A program made the position numbers and the translations under genes. Below, piece after piece: positions 38,826 to 44,674 of a stretch of DNA of 64,000 nucleotides. Under the pieces are notes generated by a model. That model made no database searches and was not told the DNA's origin. It saw only the letters and a list, made by a program, of their open reading frames with translations. Within the stretch, counting starts at the first letter, position 1; each line of letters begins with the position of its first letter. Source of the DNA: Lachnospiraceae bacterium G41 (GTDB taxonomy: Bacteria > Bacillota > Clostridia > Lachnospirales > Lachnospiraceae); assembly GCA_900100245.1 (NCBI GenBank), contig FNEU01000003.1, positions 124,001 through 188,000 of the forward strand, written 5' to 3'.

Positions 38826-38854
38826 TTGACATACCAAATTGGTAGGTTTATAGT
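38826..38854 (+). promoter_or_regulatory. Strong sigma-A promoter with operator palindrome in the spacer
   Basis: TTGACA (38826-38831), 17-nt spacer, TATAGT (38849-38854). The spacer holds TACCAA-A-TTGGTA (38832-38844), a perfect dyad suited to a repressor binding across the promoter. An Rrf2/CymR-type regulator of sulfur metabolism is a guess only. Confidence 0.8.
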
Positions 38855-38888
38855 ATCGACTATCGAATTGAAAGGAGACATGACAAAT

Positions 38889-39008
38889 ATGAAAACATTT
38901 GCAAATAATTACATCTCAATGTGTATGTGTTGCTGTCGAATGCTTTTCTCCCGGGCCTGTATGAAAACCGGGTGTTTGGCTCATTTGTCATGCACCTGCA
39001 CGGATTAG
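38889..39008 (+). CDS. Cys/Met-rich leader peptide of the sulfur amino-acid transport operon
   Basis: 39 codons from ATG 38889, eleven bases after AAAGGAG. Cys at 12, 14, 15, 16, 24, 29, 35 and 37; Met at 11, 13, 18 and 25 (ISMCMCCCRM in the middle). Composition is far from that of a folded small protein, and it sits between a strong promoter and a terminator before a transporter operon. This is the layout of a transcription-attenuation leader that senses charged tRNA-Cys, possibly also tRNA-Met. An ATG at 38880 is in frame but too close to the ribosome binding site. Confidence 0.75.
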   Translation: MKTFANNYISMCMCCCRMLFSRACMKTGCLAHLSCTCTD

Positions 39009-39071
39009 TTTGTCATTTCGAATGAAACGTTAATTTGGCTCGGGAGTTTAAAACCCCGGGCTTTTTCTTTT
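38948..39071 (+). promoter_or_regulatory. Transcription attenuator with competing terminator and antiterminator
   Basis: Terminator: GCTCGGG (39038-39044) with CCCGGGC (39055-39061), then TTTTTCTTTT (39062-39071). Antiterminator: CTCCCGGGCC (38948-38957, inside the leader ORF) pairs over ten bases with GGCTCGGGAG (39037-39046), which includes the terminator's 5' arm. A third pairing, CCCGG (38950-38954) with CCGGG (38968-38972), can shield the antiterminator arm. A ribosome stalled at Cys codons 12-16 (ending 38936) would leave 38948 onward free. CATGACAAAT (38879-38888) can also pair with ATTTGTCATG (38983-38992). Confidence 0.7.
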
Positions 39072-39151
39072 GTAAAGGAAAAGCCGCAGGATGCAAAAAT
39101 ACAGAAAATACACATAAGTAATTATTTAAGAGAAAAGAGGATAAAAAGATC

Positions 39152-40819
39152 ATGAAAAAGAATTTTGGAAAAATATTAACAGGAATTTTAACAGCAGGAC
39201 TTGCTATAGCATCTTTTACGGGATGCGCTAATACAGCTTCGGGCGGAAACACAGTAAATGTTACCGAAGCAAATGCCACAAAGGTATACAGAACACTCGA
39301 TGAAATAAAAGAGAGCGGAAAGATAAACATCGGAGTTTTCTCAGACAAAAACCCGTTCGGTTATGTGGATGAAAACGGTAAATATCAGGGCTACGATGTT
39401 TACTTCGCAGAGAGAATCGGTGAAGACCTCGGAGTAGATATCAACTACGTCTCCACAGAGGCAGCCAGCAGAGTTGAATATCTTGAAACAGGTAAGGTTG
39501 ATATCGTTCTTGCAAACTTTACCGTAACCGAAGAGAGAGCCGAAAAGGTTGACTTTACACTTCCTTACATGAACGTGGCACTCGGTGTCGTATCACACGA
39601 AGACAACGTAATTACAGACCTTTCACAGATTGGTGCTGACGATCAAGTAATCGTTATTTCAGGTACAACAGCAGAGACATACCTTGAAAAGAATTATCCC
39701 GACATCAAGCTTCAGAAGTTTGATACATATGCATCGGCTAAGACATCCTTTGAAAACGGAACAGGCGTTGCATGGGCTAACGACAACACAGAGGTTATTG
39801 CTTACGCTATCGAAAACCCCGGATTTGTGGTTGGTATTCCGTCACTCGGAAGCCAGGATACAATAGCTCCCGCAGTATCAAAGGGTAACGATTCTCTTGC
39901 AAACTGGTTAAATGAAGAAACGGTTAAACTTGGCGAAGAGAACTTCTTCCATGCGGATTATGAAGCAACACTTATTGATACTTACGGTGCGGATTATGAG
40001 AACACACTTGTAGTTGAAGGCGGTAAAGTTGCTGAAGCAGATGCAGCAGAAGAGACAGATGCAGCAGATATTCCCAACGGAAACGGCGAGACAATTAAGA
40101 TCGCAGCAACACCCGTTCCTCATGCAGAGATTCTCGAAGAAGCAGCCAAGATTCTTGAAAACTACGGTTACAAACTTGATATTGTAGAATTTGACGATTA
40201 TGTACAGCCCAACCTTGTAGTTGAGTCAGGCGAATTTGACGCAAACTATTTCCAGCACGTGCCTTACCTTGACAGCTTCAACGCTGAACAGGGAACACAC
40301 CTTGTAGTTGCAGGCGAAATTCACTATGAGCCTTTCGGAATTTATCCCGGCAAAAAGGCAAGCCTTGACGAAATCGGTGACGGCGACAAGATTGCAATTC
40401 CCAACGATACAACAAACGAAGCAAGAGCACTTTTACTTCTTCAGGACAACGGTCTCATCACCTTAAAAGAGGGCGTAGGCCTCACAGCAACAGTAAACGA
40501 TGTGGTTGAAAACCCTCACAACATTGAATTCGTGGAACTTGAAGCAGCTCAGGTTGCAAGAGTCGTAAAGGAAGTTGAATACGTTATCTTAAACGGCAAC
40601 TATGCACTTGAAGCAGGCTATTCCGTAGGAAAAGATTCAATTGCATACGAAGCAAGCGATTCCGAAGCTGCCAAGACTTACGTAAATATCGTTACCGTTC
40701 TTGAAGGAAACGAAAACAGCGATAAGATTCAGGCTCTTGTAAAAGTTTTAAGATCCGATGAAATTAAGAAATTCATCGAAGACACATATGACGGTGCAGT
40801 AATCTTCTATGAAAAATAA
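39152..40819 (+). CDS. Fused substrate-binding lipoprotein: polar amino-acid (cystine-type) domain plus MetQ/NlpA domain
   Basis: 555 residues. Signal peptide with lipobox SFTGC, Cys25 lipidated. Residues about 45-285 are a family-3 solute-binding domain (SGKINIGVFSDKNPFGYVDE, VDIVLANFTVTEERAEKVDF). An Ala/Glu/Asp-rich linker (about 288-313) leads in frame to a complete MetQ/NlpA-type domain (about 315-555) with KIAATPVPHAEILEEAAKIL, ANYFQHVPYLD and IAIPNDTTNEARALLLLQ. Each domain is normally a separate lipoprotein. The operon then encodes MetN-MetI and a separate polar amino-acid ABC core, so one receptor may feed two importers for methionine and cystine/cysteine. GAGGATAAAAAG precedes the ATG. 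Confidence 0.9.
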   Translation: MKKNFGKILTGILTAGLAIASFTGCANTASGGNTVNVTEANATKVYRTLDEIKESGKINIGVFSDKNPFGYVDENGKYQGYDVYFAERIGEDLGVDINYVSTEAASRVEYLETGKVDIVLANFTVTEERAEKVDFTLPYMNVALGVVSHEDNVITDLSQIGADDQVIVISGTTAETYLEKNYPDIKLQKFDTYASAKTSFENGTGVAWANDNTEVIAYAIENPGFVVGIPSLGSQDTIAPAVSKGNDSLANWLNEETVKLGEENFFHADYEATLIDTYGADYENTLVVEGGKVAEADAAEETDAADIPNGNGETIKIAATPVPHAEILEEAAKILENYGYKLDIVEFDDYVQPNLVVESGEFDANYFQHVPYLDSFNAEQGTHLVVAGEIHYEPFGIYPGKKASLDEIGDGDKIAIPNDTTNEARALLLLQDNGLITLKEGVGLTATVNDVVENPHNIEFVELEAAQVARVVKEVEYVILNGNYALEAGYSVGKDSIAYEASDSEAAKTYVNIVTVLEGNENSDKIQALVKVLRSDEIKKFIEDTYDGAVIFYEK

Positions 40820-40873: not shown

Positions 40874-40915
40874 GCACTTAAAAGAATGAAGTGCATGAAA
40901 CTTGGAGTAACAAAA

Positions 40916-41929
40916 ATGAGCGAAATAGAGATAAAAAACCTGACTAAAATATTTGAGATAAAAGGGCATACGGTGACGGCGTTAAGCGACGTTTCGCTTT
41001 CAATAGAAAAGGGGGATATTTTCGGCATTATCGGAATGTCCGGAGCAGGGAAAAGTACACTCGTCAGAACGGTAAATTTCCTGGAAAAACCCACTCAGGG
41101 CAGCATTCTTATAGACGGTATCAATCTTTCGACATTAAGCGAAAAAGAGTTAAGGAAAAAACGCCGCGAAATCGGAATGATTTTCCAGAATTTTAATCTC
41201 CTGGAGCAAAAGAATGTTATCGACAATATCTGCTTTCCCCTGGAAATTGCGGGAGTTAAAAGAAAAGAGGCCAGAGTAAGAGCCAAGGAACTTTTAAAGA
41301 CCGTCAATCTTGAAGACAAGGAAAAGGCTTTTCCCTCTCAGCTTTCCGGCGGTCAGAAACAAAGAGTCGCCATAGCCAGAGCACTTGCAACCAATCCGAG
41401 CATTCTTTTATGCGACGAAGCAACCTCTGCGCTTGATCCTCAGACCACCGACTCGATATTAAAGCTCCTAAAAGAAATAAACGAAATGCTCGGAATAACT
41501 ATTGTTATCATCACGCATCAGATGTCCGTTGTCACTGAAGTTTGTAAGCATGTCGCAATTATCGACAACGGAAAACTCGCCGAAGAGGGAGAGGTTGATA
41601 AAATCTTCGAATCACCCTCATCCGATGCGGCAAAGGAATTAATTACGGGCAGCGAAATCAATTACACACCGCTTAAAAGCCTTGATACAAAAAGAAAAAT
41701 CAGAATTGTGTTTAAGGAAAATTCGGCATACGAGCCCGTCATTTCAAATATGATTTTAAAATTCAAAACACCGGTTAATATTCTGAAAGCCGACACGAGA
41801 AACGTGGGCGGAAAGGCAAGAGGCGAAATGATTCTTGCACTGCCTGAGGATGAGGCGGTATCGGAAGAGATTATTTTATATCTGAAAGAGAACGGACTGG
41901 CTGTAGCCGATTATGAAGGCGAAGCATAG
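40916..41929 (+). CDS. metN: Methionine ABC transporter ATPase MetN
   Basis: 337 residues; ATG 40916 behind CTTGGAG. Walker A GMSGAGKST, signature LSGGQKQR, Walker B ILLCDEATSALD. The C-terminal ~75 residues (RIVFKENSAYEPVISNMILK onward) form the NIL/ACT regulatory domain typical of MetN, by which internal methionine inhibits transport. Works with MetI and the MetQ half of the fused receptor. Confidence 0.94.
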   Translation: MSEIEIKNLTKIFEIKGHTVTALSDVSLSIEKGDIFGIIGMSGAGKSTLVRTVNFLEKPTQGSILIDGINLSTLSEKELRKKRREIGMIFQNFNLLEQKNVIDNICFPLEIAGVKRKEARVRAKELLKTVNLEDKEKAFPSQLSGGQKQRVAIARALATNPSILLCDEATSALDPQTTDSILKLLKEINEMLGITIVIITHQMSVVTEVCKHVAIIDNGKLAEEGEVDKIFESPSSDAAKELITGSEINYTPLKSLDTKRKIRIVFKENSAYEPVISNMILKFKTPVNILKADTRNVGGKARGEMILALPEDEAVSEEIILYLKENGLAVADYEGEA

Positions 41930-41940
41930 AGGTAAGAAAA

Positions 41941-42603
41941 ATGTTTGACAGCAAAGTAATAGGAATGATCATTGAAGGAATAAGGGATACGTTATACATG
42001 ACGTTGGGATCCACATTTGTCGGATACCTGCTTGGGCTTCCTCTTGGAATTCTTCTTTATGTGACGAATTCCAAGGGGCTTAAACCCAACAAAATAATTT
42101 ACGGAATCGGTGATTTTGTCTGCAACATCATAAGAAGCATTCCGTTTCTTATTTTACTGATTCTGTTAATCCCTTTTACGAGATTAATAGTAGGAAAAAG
42201 TTACGGTTCGACGGCCACAATAGTTCCGCTTGTAATCTGCGCGGCGCCTTATATAGCAAGAGTTGTGGAGTCGTCCTTAAACGAGGTTGATGCGGGTGTA
42301 ATCGAGGCCGCAAAGGCGATGGGTGCGAGCAATCTGCAGATAATATTTAAGGTGCTTTTGGTTGAAGCGAAGACTTCTCTTTTTACGGGAGCAACGATTA
42401 CCACAGGGCTTCTTTTAGGATATTCGGCAATGTCCGGAACCGTCGGCGGCGGAGGCTTAGGCGATATCGCAGTCAGATACGGCTATTACAGATGGCAGAC
42501 CGACATTATGATAGTAACGGTTATACTGCTTATCGTAATCTTCCAGATTATTCAGAATCTCGGAACATTCATGGCAAAGAAAATCGATCACAGGAAAAAA
42601 TAA
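41941..42603 (+). CDS. metI: Methionine ABC transporter permease MetI
   Basis: 220 residues, five membrane helices. The coupling-helix EAA region reads IEAAKAMGASNLQIIFKVLL, and SGTVGGGGLGDIAVRYGY is typical for MetI. Eleven bases after metN. Its TAA stop overlaps the ATG of the next permease (ATAATG). Confidence 0.94.
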   Translation: MFDSKVIGMIIEGIRDTLYMTLGSTFVGYLLGLPLGILLYVTNSKGLKPNKIIYGIGDFVCNIIRSIPFLILLILLIPFTRLIVGKSYGSTATIVPLVICAAPYIARVVESSLNEVDAGVIEAAKAMGASNLQIIFKVLLVEAKTSLFTGATITTGLLLGYSAMSGTVGGGGLGDIAVRYGYYRWQTDIMIVTVILLIVIFQIIQNLGTFMAKKIDHRKK

Positions 42604-43262
42604 TGGATTTTAACGTAATCAAGGATTATCTGCCTTTGTACATAAAGGCATTTATGCTGACAATTAAAATAGGGTGGATCGGAATCGCTCTTTCTCTCGG
42701 GATAGGAGTGATTTCGGCGTTTATATTACATTTTAAAATTCCGTTTTTCTCGGCAGTCGTAAAGGTATATGTTGAGCTTTTCAGAAACACACCGCTTCTC
42801 GTGCAGCTTTTCTTCGTATATTTCGGGCTTCCGAAACTCGGAATATCGATATCGGCAGAGGCCTGCGGAGCCTTGGGACTCGGACTTTTGGGCGGAGCCT
42901 ATATGGCAGAGAGTTTCAGGAGCGGACTTGGCGCGGTTAAGCTATCGCAGACCGAAAGTGCGCTGGCACTCGGCATGAAAAAGAGACAGCTTTTCACATC
43001 CGTCATTCTTCCTCAGGCCATAACCTTAAGTGTGCCTGCGGTAGTCGCAAACCTCATTTTCCTCCTAAAAGAAACAAGCGTCTTTTCCGCAATAAGCCTG
43101 ATGGATCTGATGTTTACGGCCAAGGATTTAATCGGCCTTTATTACAACACAACGGAATGTCTTTTTATGCTTGTAATTTTTTATGTGATTATGCTGCTTC
43201 CGGTATCGGTTTTAGGAAGTATCGTTGAGAAAAAAGCAAGATTTAAAATGTTTGGAGATTAA
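42603..43262 (+). CDS. Polar amino-acid ABC transporter permease, first subunit
   Basis: 219 residues from ATG 42603, overlapping the metI stop; the longer upstream frame lies inside metI. HisM/GlnP-type permease: VELFRNTPLLVQLFFVYFG and the EAA loop ESALALGMKKRQLF. It belongs with the second permease and the ATPase below, forming the cystine-type (TcyBC/GlnPQ-like) importer that would use the first half of the fused receptor. Confidence 0.9.
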   Translation: MDFNVIKDYLPLYIKAFMLTIKIGWIGIALSLGIGVISAFILHFKIPFFSAVVKVYVELFRNTPLLVQLFFVYFGLPKLGISISAEACGALGLGLLGGAYMAESFRSGLGAVKLSQTESALALGMKKRQLFTSVILPQAITLSVPAVVANLIFLLKETSVFSAISLMDLMFTAKDLIGLYYNTTECLFMLVIFYVIMLLPVSVLGSIVEKKARFKMFGD

Positions 43263-43263
43263 C

Positions 43264-43932
43264 ATGGGATTTGAAGTTCTACTCAAAGGAAATAATATGC
43301 TCCGCCTCCTTGGAGGCCTTGGTGTGGCGCTTTATATAAGCCTTATTTCCGTTGCCATAAGCATTTTTCTTGGAATCATACTCGGAGCGCTGATGACGCT
43401 TAAAAATCCTGTTATCAATGCGTTCTCAAGGGTATATTTGGAAATAGTCAGAATAATGCCGCAGATGGTGCTTTTATTCATAGTTTATTTCGGTGCCACC
43501 AAGGTTCTAGGAATTAATCTGTCTGCAGAGGTTTCGTCCGTCATCGTATTTACTTTTTGGGGAACCGCGGAAATGTCGGATTTGGTCAGAGGAGCGCTCT
43601 CGGGTATAGATACCATTCAGTATGAAAGCAGTGCGGCGCTTGGGATGAACACGGTACAGACTTATTTTCACGTTATTATTCCGCAGATTATAAGGCGATT
43701 AATACCGCTTTCGATAAACCTTATCACCAGAATGATTAAAACCACGAGCCTTGTCATGATGATAGGAATCGTCGAGGTTTTGAAAGTGGGACAGCAGATA
43801 ATAGAGGCCAACAGAAAGAGTTCGCCGAATGCGGCGTTCGGAGTTTTTGCCACGATTTTTCTTTTATATTTTCTGGCATGCTATCCGATAAGCCTTTTGT
43901 CCAAATATCTTGAAAAGAAGTGGGAGAACTGA
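43264..43932 (+). CDS. Polar amino-acid ABC transporter permease, second subunit
   Basis: 222 residues; ATG 43264 one base after the preceding stop, GGAGATT upstream. Same family as its neighbour but clearly diverged ([23 protein letters not shown] loop [20 protein letters not shown]), so the importer core is likely a heterodimer. Confidence 0.9.
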
Positions 43933-43933
43933 T

Positions 43934-44674
43934 ATGGAAGAGATTTTAAAAGTTAACGGATTAAGCAAACAATTTGATGATTTACCTGTGCTCGACAATC
44001 TGTCACTATCGGTTAAAAAAGGCGAAGTAGTGGTAATAGTGGGACCCTCGGGCTGCGGCAAAAGTACTTTTCTTCGCTGCTTAAACGGGCTCGAAGACAT
44101 TGATGAAGGCGAAGTTCTTTTAGGAGAAGAAAAGGTAAATCCCAACAAAAAGAATTTAAGCAGGACCAGGGAAAGAATCGGAATGGTATTTCAAAGTTAC
44201 GACCTTTTCCCTCATAAAACAATTCTTCAAAACATCACTTTAGCTCCGATAAAGGTTAAAAAACGTAAAAAAGCCGAGGTCGAAGAAGAGGCCATCAAAC
44301 TTCTCGACAGAGTAGGACTTTTGTCAAAAAAAGACAGTTATCCGAGGCAGTTATCCGGCGGACAGAAGCAGAGAGTAGCGATAGTAAGGGCACTTATCAT
44401 GCATCCTGAGGTTTTGCTTTTGGACGAAATAACAGCGGCGCTCGATCCCGAGATGGTAAGGGAAGTTCTGGATGTTGTTCTTTCTCTCGCCAAAGAAGGC
44501 AGAACCATGCTTATAGTCACTCATGAGATGGCATTTGCAAAAGCGGTTGCCGACAGGGTTATTTTTCTTGAGAACGGTAAAATTGTCGAAGAGGGAAGTC
44601 CCGAAGAGTTTTTTGACAATCCGCAAACGGACAGACTTAAGAGATTTTTGAAAACTTTCAGTTACGAGAAATAA
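43934..44674 (+). CDS. Polar amino-acid ABC transporter ATPase
   Basis: 246 residues, GlnQ/TcyC class. Walker [10 protein letters not shown], signature LSGGQKQR, Walker [13 protein letters not shown] (Ile where Pro is usual after the catalytic Glu). ATG 43934 follows TGGGAGAAC and is one base from the previous stop. Last gene of the operon, followed by a terminator. Confidence 0.92.

Follow-up and report, generated by a model that had tools for sequence, protein, structure and literature searches.

What does a short ORF crowded with Cys codons do in front of a transporter operon? This question is raised by the window analysed here, a 64,000-nucleotide stretch on contig C10 of a 2.59-Mb Lachnospiraceae genome, in which such an ORF is located upstream of genes for a receptor lipoprotein and its transport partners (Table 1). 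Judged from its gene products, the operon appears to encode a two-sided cystine/methionine-type importer. Most of the named relatives used for comparison are rumen and gut records of Lachnospiraceae. We read the ORF, together with the RNA following it, as a ribosome-mediated transcription attenuator that would sense Cys-tRNA, and probably Met-tRNA, for this cystine/methionine-type uptake operon, and assign this reading a probability of roughly 0.86. An attenuator for sulfur amino acids had already been proposed in an earlier sequence-only reading of the locus, and this proposal is now backed by covariation, codon enrichment and sulfur-gene context.

Table 1. Features of the leader region and of the operon behind it, in window positions.
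Feature	Position	Strand	Details
Sigma-70-type promoter	38826..38854	+	TTGACA 38826-38831, 17 nt, TATAGT 38849-38854; CTATTGACA common to most members near the receptor gene
Dyad TACCAA-A-TTGGTA in promoter spacer	38832..38844	+	Perfect; candidate repressor operator
Shine-Dalgarno (SD) and spacer	38872..38888	+	AAGGAGACATGACAAAT; SD AAAGGAG at 38871-38877
Leader ORF, Cys/Met-rich	38889..39008	+	39 codons; ATG 38889, TAG 39006-39008; translation MKTFANNYISMCMCCCRMLFSRACMKTGCLAHLSCTCTD
Regulatory codon run	38919..38936	+	Codons 11-16, M-C-M-C-C-C
CGA-ATG (Arg-Met)	38937..38942	+	Immediately 3' of the run's last Cys codon
Arm A, antiterminator 5' arm	38948..38957	+	CTCCCGGGCC; pairs with GGCTCGGGAG 39037-39046, 10 bp, one G-U
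Inner hairpin B:B'	38969..38998	+	38969-38975 with 38992-38998; 38977-38980 with 38987-38990
Inner hairpin E	39013..39025	+	TCATT-TCG-AATGA in the window
Arm C, antiterminator 3' arm and terminator 5' arm	39037..39046	+	GGCTCGGGAG
Intrinsic terminator C:D with T-tract	39037..39071	+	GGCTCGGG 39037-39044 with CCCGGGCT 39055-39062; T-tract TTTTTCTTTT 39062-39071
Fused receptor lipoprotein, SBP_bac_3 and MetQ/NlpA	39152..40819	+	Family matches
MetN-like ATPase	40886..41929	+	Best NCBIfam match MetN, below its cut-off
MetI permease	41941..42603	+	NF008049 220.8 bits, cut-off 212
Two polar-amino-acid-type permeases	42492..43932	+	ORFs 42492-43262 and 43225-43932
Amino-acid ABC ATPase, GlnQ/TcyN/EhuA kind	43910..44674	+	Below equivalog cut-offs

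The leader ORF had been described as 39 codons with eight Cys and four internal Met, which was confirmed base by base for the peptide MKTFANNYISMCMCCCRMLFSRACMKTGCLAHLSCTCTD, and reading of the sequence likewise confirmed that the last base of its dense run (ISMCMCCC) is 38936, which leaves 11 nt to the antiterminator arm. A second in-frame ATG lies at 38880, ahead of the 38889 start. The peptide had no NCBIfam match, and it has the highest Cys fraction of all 250 window ORFs that start with ATG and encode 25-60 aa. Over 54 distinct leaders (excluding L107, which carries a different Cys ORF), the eight codons preceding CGA-ATG comprised 204 Cys (47%) and 123 Met (28%) out of 432, against a background of 0.96% Cys and 2.7% Met in nine window genes. 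The sequence-only reading had laid its stress on the Cys codons, and these indeed form the largest part of the run, but the roughly tenfold enrichment of Met is systematic as well. The number of Cys per leader peptide varies from 4 to 9. In the 54 leaders tabulated, arm A begins 11 nt downstream of the first CGA base, and the CGR-ATG motif was built into the leader search pattern, so that its invariance is partly by construction. Covariance-model matches, for which CGR-ATG was not demanded, mostly retain the motif, with variants in for example L112, L117, L138 and L151.

Downstream of the codon run, the antiterminator A:C and the terminator C:D are mutually exclusive through their common arm C. 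This 10-bp antiterminator sharing an arm with a T-tract terminator, as put forward in the sequence-only reading, was found in the sequence and covaries in relatives. The terminator scan of the window reported none, the C:D loop of 10 being larger than the scan's loop limit of 8. Compared with 200 shuffles each, the stretch 38960-39075 (116 nt) outdid 199 in folding energy (z -3.2), the 136 nt beginning at 38940 outdid 193 (z -2.1), and the leader of 219 nt no more than 186 (z -1.75). Folding energy by itself is modest evidence, and the strong evidence is comparative.

Specifically, in an alignment of 41 leaders, which omits 13 of the 54 (L003, L004, L009, L011, L013, L037, L043, L048, L073, L092, L101, L102 and L104), the antiterminator fold with both inner hairpins (A:C, B:B' and E) was 95.1% paired, and 14 of its 25 pairs had changed on both sides. 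None of 500 shuffles reached any of five measures for this fold, in a permutation test that, like the others reported here, ignores relatedness among the leaders; slid controls paired at 28-49%. The A:C helix alone was 98.5% paired, with both-sided changes in 5 of 10 pairs. For the terminator version (C:D with B:B' and E) the corresponding values were 92.0% and 12 of 24 pairs, and for C:D alone 90.8% and 3 of 9. The same antiterminator fold extended to 89 model-aligned members that include other genes, where it was 92.7% paired, with 24 of 25 pairs changed on both sides and no match among 500 shuffles (A:C alone: 96.3%, 9 of 10 pairs), in an alignment that was fitted by a covariance model and hence leans towards the structure. 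All of the 13 omitted leaders except L003 and L004 went into this 89-member fit. Moreover, an additional antiterminator helix, A2:C0 (ATGGYC with GRCCAT), adjoins arms A and C; it is only 3 bp long in the window, and across the leaders none of 5000 cross-permutations was as complementary. A direct anti-antiterminator pairing A:B (38950-38954 with 38968-38972) occurs in the window's lineage and was left out of the general mechanism because it is weaker or elsewhere in most relatives.

Folds modelling a stalled state, with the last Cys codon in the A site, favoured A:C over C:D in 48 of the 54 leaders, with window probabilities of 0.96 for A:C and 0.04 for C:D; the six favouring the terminator were L006, L007, L008, L041, L069 and L075, of which L006-L008 are among the window's closest relatives. 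Together with the position of the codon run, these folds agree with the earlier suggestion that stalling on Cys codons leaves the antiterminator arm free. With a ribosome at the stop codon, C:D exceeded 0.5 in 50 of 54 leaders, a fold that omits arm A by design, so that it shows merely that C:D can form. The companion suggestion, that smooth translation covers the antiterminator arm, had to be modified, as 48 nt lie between the 38948-38957 arm and the stop codon; translation more likely obstructs the stretch separating the two arms. Because a ribosome at the stop codon, with the footprint that we assume for it at the leader positions, covers B' and the start of E and not arm A, termination has to rely on the arms being held apart during local formation of C:D. 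In a short member of the family (L142), the stop codon follows arm A by 6 nt, and a finishing ribosome would cover arm A there.

The region between the SD and the start codon of the leader ORF (38879-38888) is in turn complementary over 10 bp to the loop of B:B' (38983-38992), a pairing referred to as helix F. Helix F measured at least 7 bp in 43 of the 54 leaders and was absent or short in 11, with starts that were probably mis-picked in L013, L042, L065, L085 and L089, four of them among the 43 counted. Its mean score was 18.19, compared with 16.38 (sd 0.37) for cross-paired regions, of which 0 of 10,000 reached the observed value with relatedness ignored, and 11.7 for shuffled loops. Changes on both sides of the helix occur in, for example, L094 and L047. 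For complementarity between hairpin E and the uORF start, also considered, 438 of 5000 cross-permutations reached the observed value, so that there is no clear excess. The complementarity of helix F suggests that leader translation might be shut off once the B loop has been made. Such self-shutoff would resemble in concept that of the E. coli trp leader, where the beginning of trpL can pair with a segment further along the leader.

From these features we infer the following course of events. When charged tRNA is scarce, the ribosome would stall in the Cys/Met run just upstream of arm A, and arm A, helped by B:B' and E (and by A2:C0 in most relatives), would capture arm C upon its transcription; the A:C helix would then block the C:D terminator and let transcription proceed into the transporter genes. 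When tRNA is ample, the ribosome would run to the stop codon and sit on the B'/E region between the arms, which would thereby be held apart, so that the local C:D hairpin would form first and transcription would end at about 39071. Pairing of the leader start region with the B:B' loop would limit re-initiation, and transcription initiation is probably controlled as well, by a repressor of the Rrf2/CymR type at the promoter.

The extent of the family was gauged with two covariance models, R1 built from receptor leaders and R2 from 89 members. With R1 on 97 sources, 87 were taken at E 0.001 for the at least 89 fitted members, and at E 0.05 there was no match in L012, L014, L018, L084, L100 and L107. 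R1 also gave four weak opposite-strand matches (L061, L035, L042 and L008), and both models gave weak own-genome matches that by eye are not leaders (e.g. L113, E 0.1-0.3). Within the window's family, R1 matched in 37 and R2 in 43 of 299 genomes. In a phylum-wide draw R2 matched in 6 of 398 genomes, including four that do not belong to the family (G698, G607, G719 and G722). Three of these four have the match upstream of metY-like genes (L211, the only one tested, matched TIGR01326), and the fourth has it upstream of an ORF resembling an amino-acid permease. Some genomes carry several copies, such as G303 with four and G357 with three. Leader-bearing strains include Lachnospiraceae bacterium YSD2013 (L055) and XBB2008 (L080).

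At 49 R1 places, some of which are receptor leaders that also trained R1, the next gene was named by eye, with representatives checked by families (PF01053, TIGR01326, cysK, MetQ and MetN). It was part of a cystine/methionine-type transporter at 13 places, a Cys/Met PLP enzyme at 24 (19 metY-like) and a cysK at 1, so that 38 of the 49 precede Cys/Met transport, PLP-enzyme or cysK genes. Four others are what we take to be GST-like genes, for which two tested fragments or proteins yielded no family, and the remaining seven are HD-domain, cyclase, YezD/metK, LysR, PepT-like, SDR and sulfopropanediol dehydratase genes. The receptor/metNI operon setting of the sequence-only reading thus holds where it was proposed, but is too narrow, since the element also precedes other genes (metY-like, cysK). 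In L155 (546-2459), a family member precedes a (2S)-3-sulfopropanediol dehydratase gene (match above cut-off), which may tie the attenuator to sulfonate breakdown. A far-reaching version of our reading, which we regard as rather doubtful, is that of a Bacillota-wide attenuator family gating on Cys or Met shortage with its own start-region off switch, which in some genomes (this one included) would stand before a divergent tRNA-Cys gene right behind the terminator, so that the sensor would also govern the supply of its own ligand.

Twelve of 18 loci with the start of the fused receptor (L002-L019) have a leader with a Cys run ending in CGA-ATG. L012, L014, L017 and L018 have leaders of quite different arm sequence (e.g. 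TCGGATCCCG with CGGGGTCCGA) that keep the A:C and C:D logic, with L018 the weakest case; L015 is truncated where its contig ends, and in L016 there is no more than a short Cys-rich ORF. Among 80 named receptor loci, the best 80 among the matches listed, a Cys leader was present within 700 nt in 52, including L107 of another type. The other 28 include two detected by the covariance model (L105 and L109), three with other Cys-rich ORFs (L099, L100 and L103) and one remnant (L084, by eye). Setting aside four loci with less than 300 nt upstream (L057, L068, L096 and L097) leaves 76 testable ones. In 18 of these no leader could be recognised, although L052 and L053 contain a short CFCC-bearing ORF, and it follows that the leader is dispensable for the operon. 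Homologous loci devoid of Cys codons or of both pairings had been named in the earlier reading as the observation that would count against it: wherever the leader is present, Cys codons and both covarying pairings co-occur, but these 18 loci do without it. Scanning of 19 leaderless or remnant loci revealed no Rfam match near the receptor gene, and one c-di-GMP riboswitch far off on L040. In the leaderless loci L040, L051-L054, L070, L071 and L087 (L053 uncertain), a TTATCACTAACGATAA-like element was seen by eye where the attenuator promoter would be, and is probably another operator. As for the receptor itself, one lipoprotein (39152-40819) joins two substrate-binding domains of different families, and the operon includes a corresponding type of transporter for each; the matches seen in other genomes extend over just one half of the fusion (SBP_bac_3 or MetQ/NlpA).

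The perfect dyad in the promoter spacer had raised the possibility that initiation is controlled too. The dyad is indeed perfect, and recurs exactly in L003, L004, L005 and L019 and imperfectly in L002 and L006-L008, but this exact form is a local version, and the more widely common promoter motif is CTATTGACA with a TAGG half-site; [CT]TATT[GT]AC[AT] was found upstream of 42 of the 54 leaders. In this genome, ACCTATTGACATAGTAGGT has three exact occurrences, of which one precedes a rhodanese/TusA-like gene, another a second attenuator, and the third a Cys-rich uORF with metY; a further site, with one mismatch, lies ahead of a cysteine desulfurase-like gene (names at these sites assigned by eye, except Rrf2). 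Because allowing up to three mismatches yielded 9 matches versus 10 for a reversed control pattern, only the exact and one-mismatch sites carry weight; the window dyad is of a different layout. In the same genome, on contig C20, metY precedes a gene that by eye is cysK-like and a gene for an Rrf2 regulator, with a related promoter operator at the head of the cluster. This regulator scored above the cut-off of TIGR00738 and below that of the IscR equivalog. The dyad is a possible repressor operator, presumably of the Rrf2/CymR type, and may be under the control of this Rrf2 protein.

Were such repression of initiation the main regulation, with the leader minor or vestigial, one would understand why some receptor loci are leaderless and why an operator-like motif is exact at three places here, one of them heading metY-cysK-rrf2. 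However, pairings that covary in 89 members from several gene families are unlikely to have been retained by a vestigial leader, and both layers can coexist, as with CodY and Rli60 in Listeria (PMC5864092), which leaves repression as the main regulation unlikely. A closer contest concerns the amino acid that is sensed. The leader could respond to cysteine alone, with the ATG-TGT alternation merely tolerated and stalling only at Cys codons, as Cys is commoner than Met in the run (204 versus 123 of 432) and most non-receptor downstream genes are metY-like or related PLP enzymes and cysK; given the strong enrichment of Met (28% versus 2.7%) and the metNI-type genes of the operon, we grant this somewhat less than an even chance.

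The two further alternatives dispense with tRNA charging. Copper-sensing Cys-rich leader ORFs are a precedent for a nascent-chain or metal/thiol sensor in which the peptide itself arrests the ribosome, and Cys-rich peptides can bind metals. Part of the leader peptide is well conserved (CRMLxS[RQ]AxNxxGxLAHLSC), including its 3' half (GxLAHLSC), for which RNA pairing accounts only partly. Nevertheless, the number and spacing of Cys vary, and the alternation of Q and R (CAG/CGG) at one conserved position tallies with an A-U/G-C alternation of one A:C pair, suggesting that at this Gln/Arg site the RNA pairing rather than the peptide may have been kept. Moreover, most of the genes that follow the leaders are related to sulfur, and no metal gene was noticed at the 49 places; we hold a peptide sensor to be very unlikely. 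The branched antiterminator with its conserved hairpins is aptamer-like in outline, as would befit a metabolite-binding riboswitch or T-box overlapping the Cys-rich ORF by chance. Yet no T-box, SAM or other cis-regulatory Rfam family reached its gathering threshold in the window leader or at ten further leader-bearing loci, and a conserved ORF with SD and regulatory codons would be superfluous for a riboswitch, making this explanation extremely improbable.

Attenuation through Cys-tRNA and probably Met-tRNA, our preferred reading, has its classical counterparts in the E. coli trp and his attenuators, which combine a short ORF carrying codons of the amino acid under control with an antiterminator that overlaps the terminator and with a U-tract. 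The present leader resembles them in its short ORF, its overlapping antiterminator and terminator and its U-tract, and differs in its Cys and Met codons, its branched antiterminator with two inner hairpins and its occurrence in Bacillota. Of the hallmarks of an attenuator, it has a short ORF with a ribosome-binding site, codons for the amino acid of the downstream genes (as far as the presumed substrate of the window's transporter goes), mutually exclusive and covarying antiterminator and intrinsic terminator, and a codon run so placed that a ribosome stalled on it would leave the antiterminator arm free. It adds to classical ribosome-mediated attenuation, the principle itself not being new. 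In Bacillota, control of sulfur amino acids is usually credited to T-boxes, SAM riboswitches and CymR.

Several related systems have been described. Rli60, the ilv-leu leader of Listeria monocytogenes, is likewise a Gram-positive ribosome-mediated attenuator and works beneath a second layer, the CodY repressor, but has a 13-codon branched-chain amino acid peptide and other genes (PMC5864092). In bacilli, His leader peptides upstream of hisS*/hisZ represent regular leader-peptide attenuation replacing T-boxes; histidine is the amino acid there, and 'cysteine' occurs in the main text only within a reference title (PMC2965389). The uORFC-8-2 motif of Rhodobacterales is a predicted cysS attenuator with Cys codons and a terminator, which in contrast to the longer Cys/Met run here has two tandem Cys codons and is described only upstream of cysS in Alphaproteobacteria (PMC8632094); by eye, no cysS was noticed as next gene at the 49 places, which sets the present leader apart from that motif. 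In the Cys-codon leader peptides of Mycobacterium, Propionibacterium and Bifidobacterium cys/cbs, the Cys run of a short ORF lies close to the stop codon and a conserved terminator hairpin is lacking, so that the authors suggest Rho (PMC1262725), whereas the window leader has its run away from the stop codon and an intrinsic terminator. The same 2005 paper reports no Firmicutes aminoacyl-tRNA-synthetase gene under classical attenuation (PMC1262725). A full-text literature search, with preprints and most subscription papers outside its scope, found no description in Lachnospiraceae and no Firmicutes Cys-codon leader. A Cys/Met attenuator family would fill a gap and provide a marker for predicting sulfur regulons: with its at least 89 fitted members, translation-coupled sensing of Cys/Met would extend, in rumen and gut bacteria, to metY-like genes, a cysK, genes for cystine/methionine-type uptake and one for sulfonate breakdown. 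In these bacteria, sensing of Cys (perhaps Met) shortage would switch on genes for uptake and synthesis of sulfur amino acids.

Elsewhere in the window's genome, a second, divergent attenuator (G000:C14:29095-29350; L112 1501-1756) scored 56 bits with R2 and has, by eye, one Cys codon in its run. Directly behind it lies a divergent tRNA-Cys(GCA)-like gene (G000:C14:29281-29350), and after that a Cys/Met PLP enzyme gene (PF01053). This tRNA-Cys-like gene is the weakest of 42 tRNA matches in the genome (34.7 bits), and a stronger tRNA-Cys is located on contig C7. The same order of leader and tRNA-Cys-like gene is found in L145/L203, where ARAGORN calls a tRNA-Cys, and in L117/L201, where ARAGORN makes no call. 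The D-arm motif of the tRNA-Cys-like gene occurs in 5 of the 299 family genomes, two of which (L202 and L205) are without such a leader.

A second kind of short Cys ORF is located upstream of the gene in L012, L014, L015, L017, L018, L024, L103 and L164. It has Arg as CGA before Met or Cys (e.g. STRMC..RCC or RMC), and sits either between terminator and gene or by itself further upstream, an example of the latter being the ORF ahead of metY in this genome (MAKDYIINFVKNILLIRMCSRCRCCL). This kind of ORF might constitute a translational layer.
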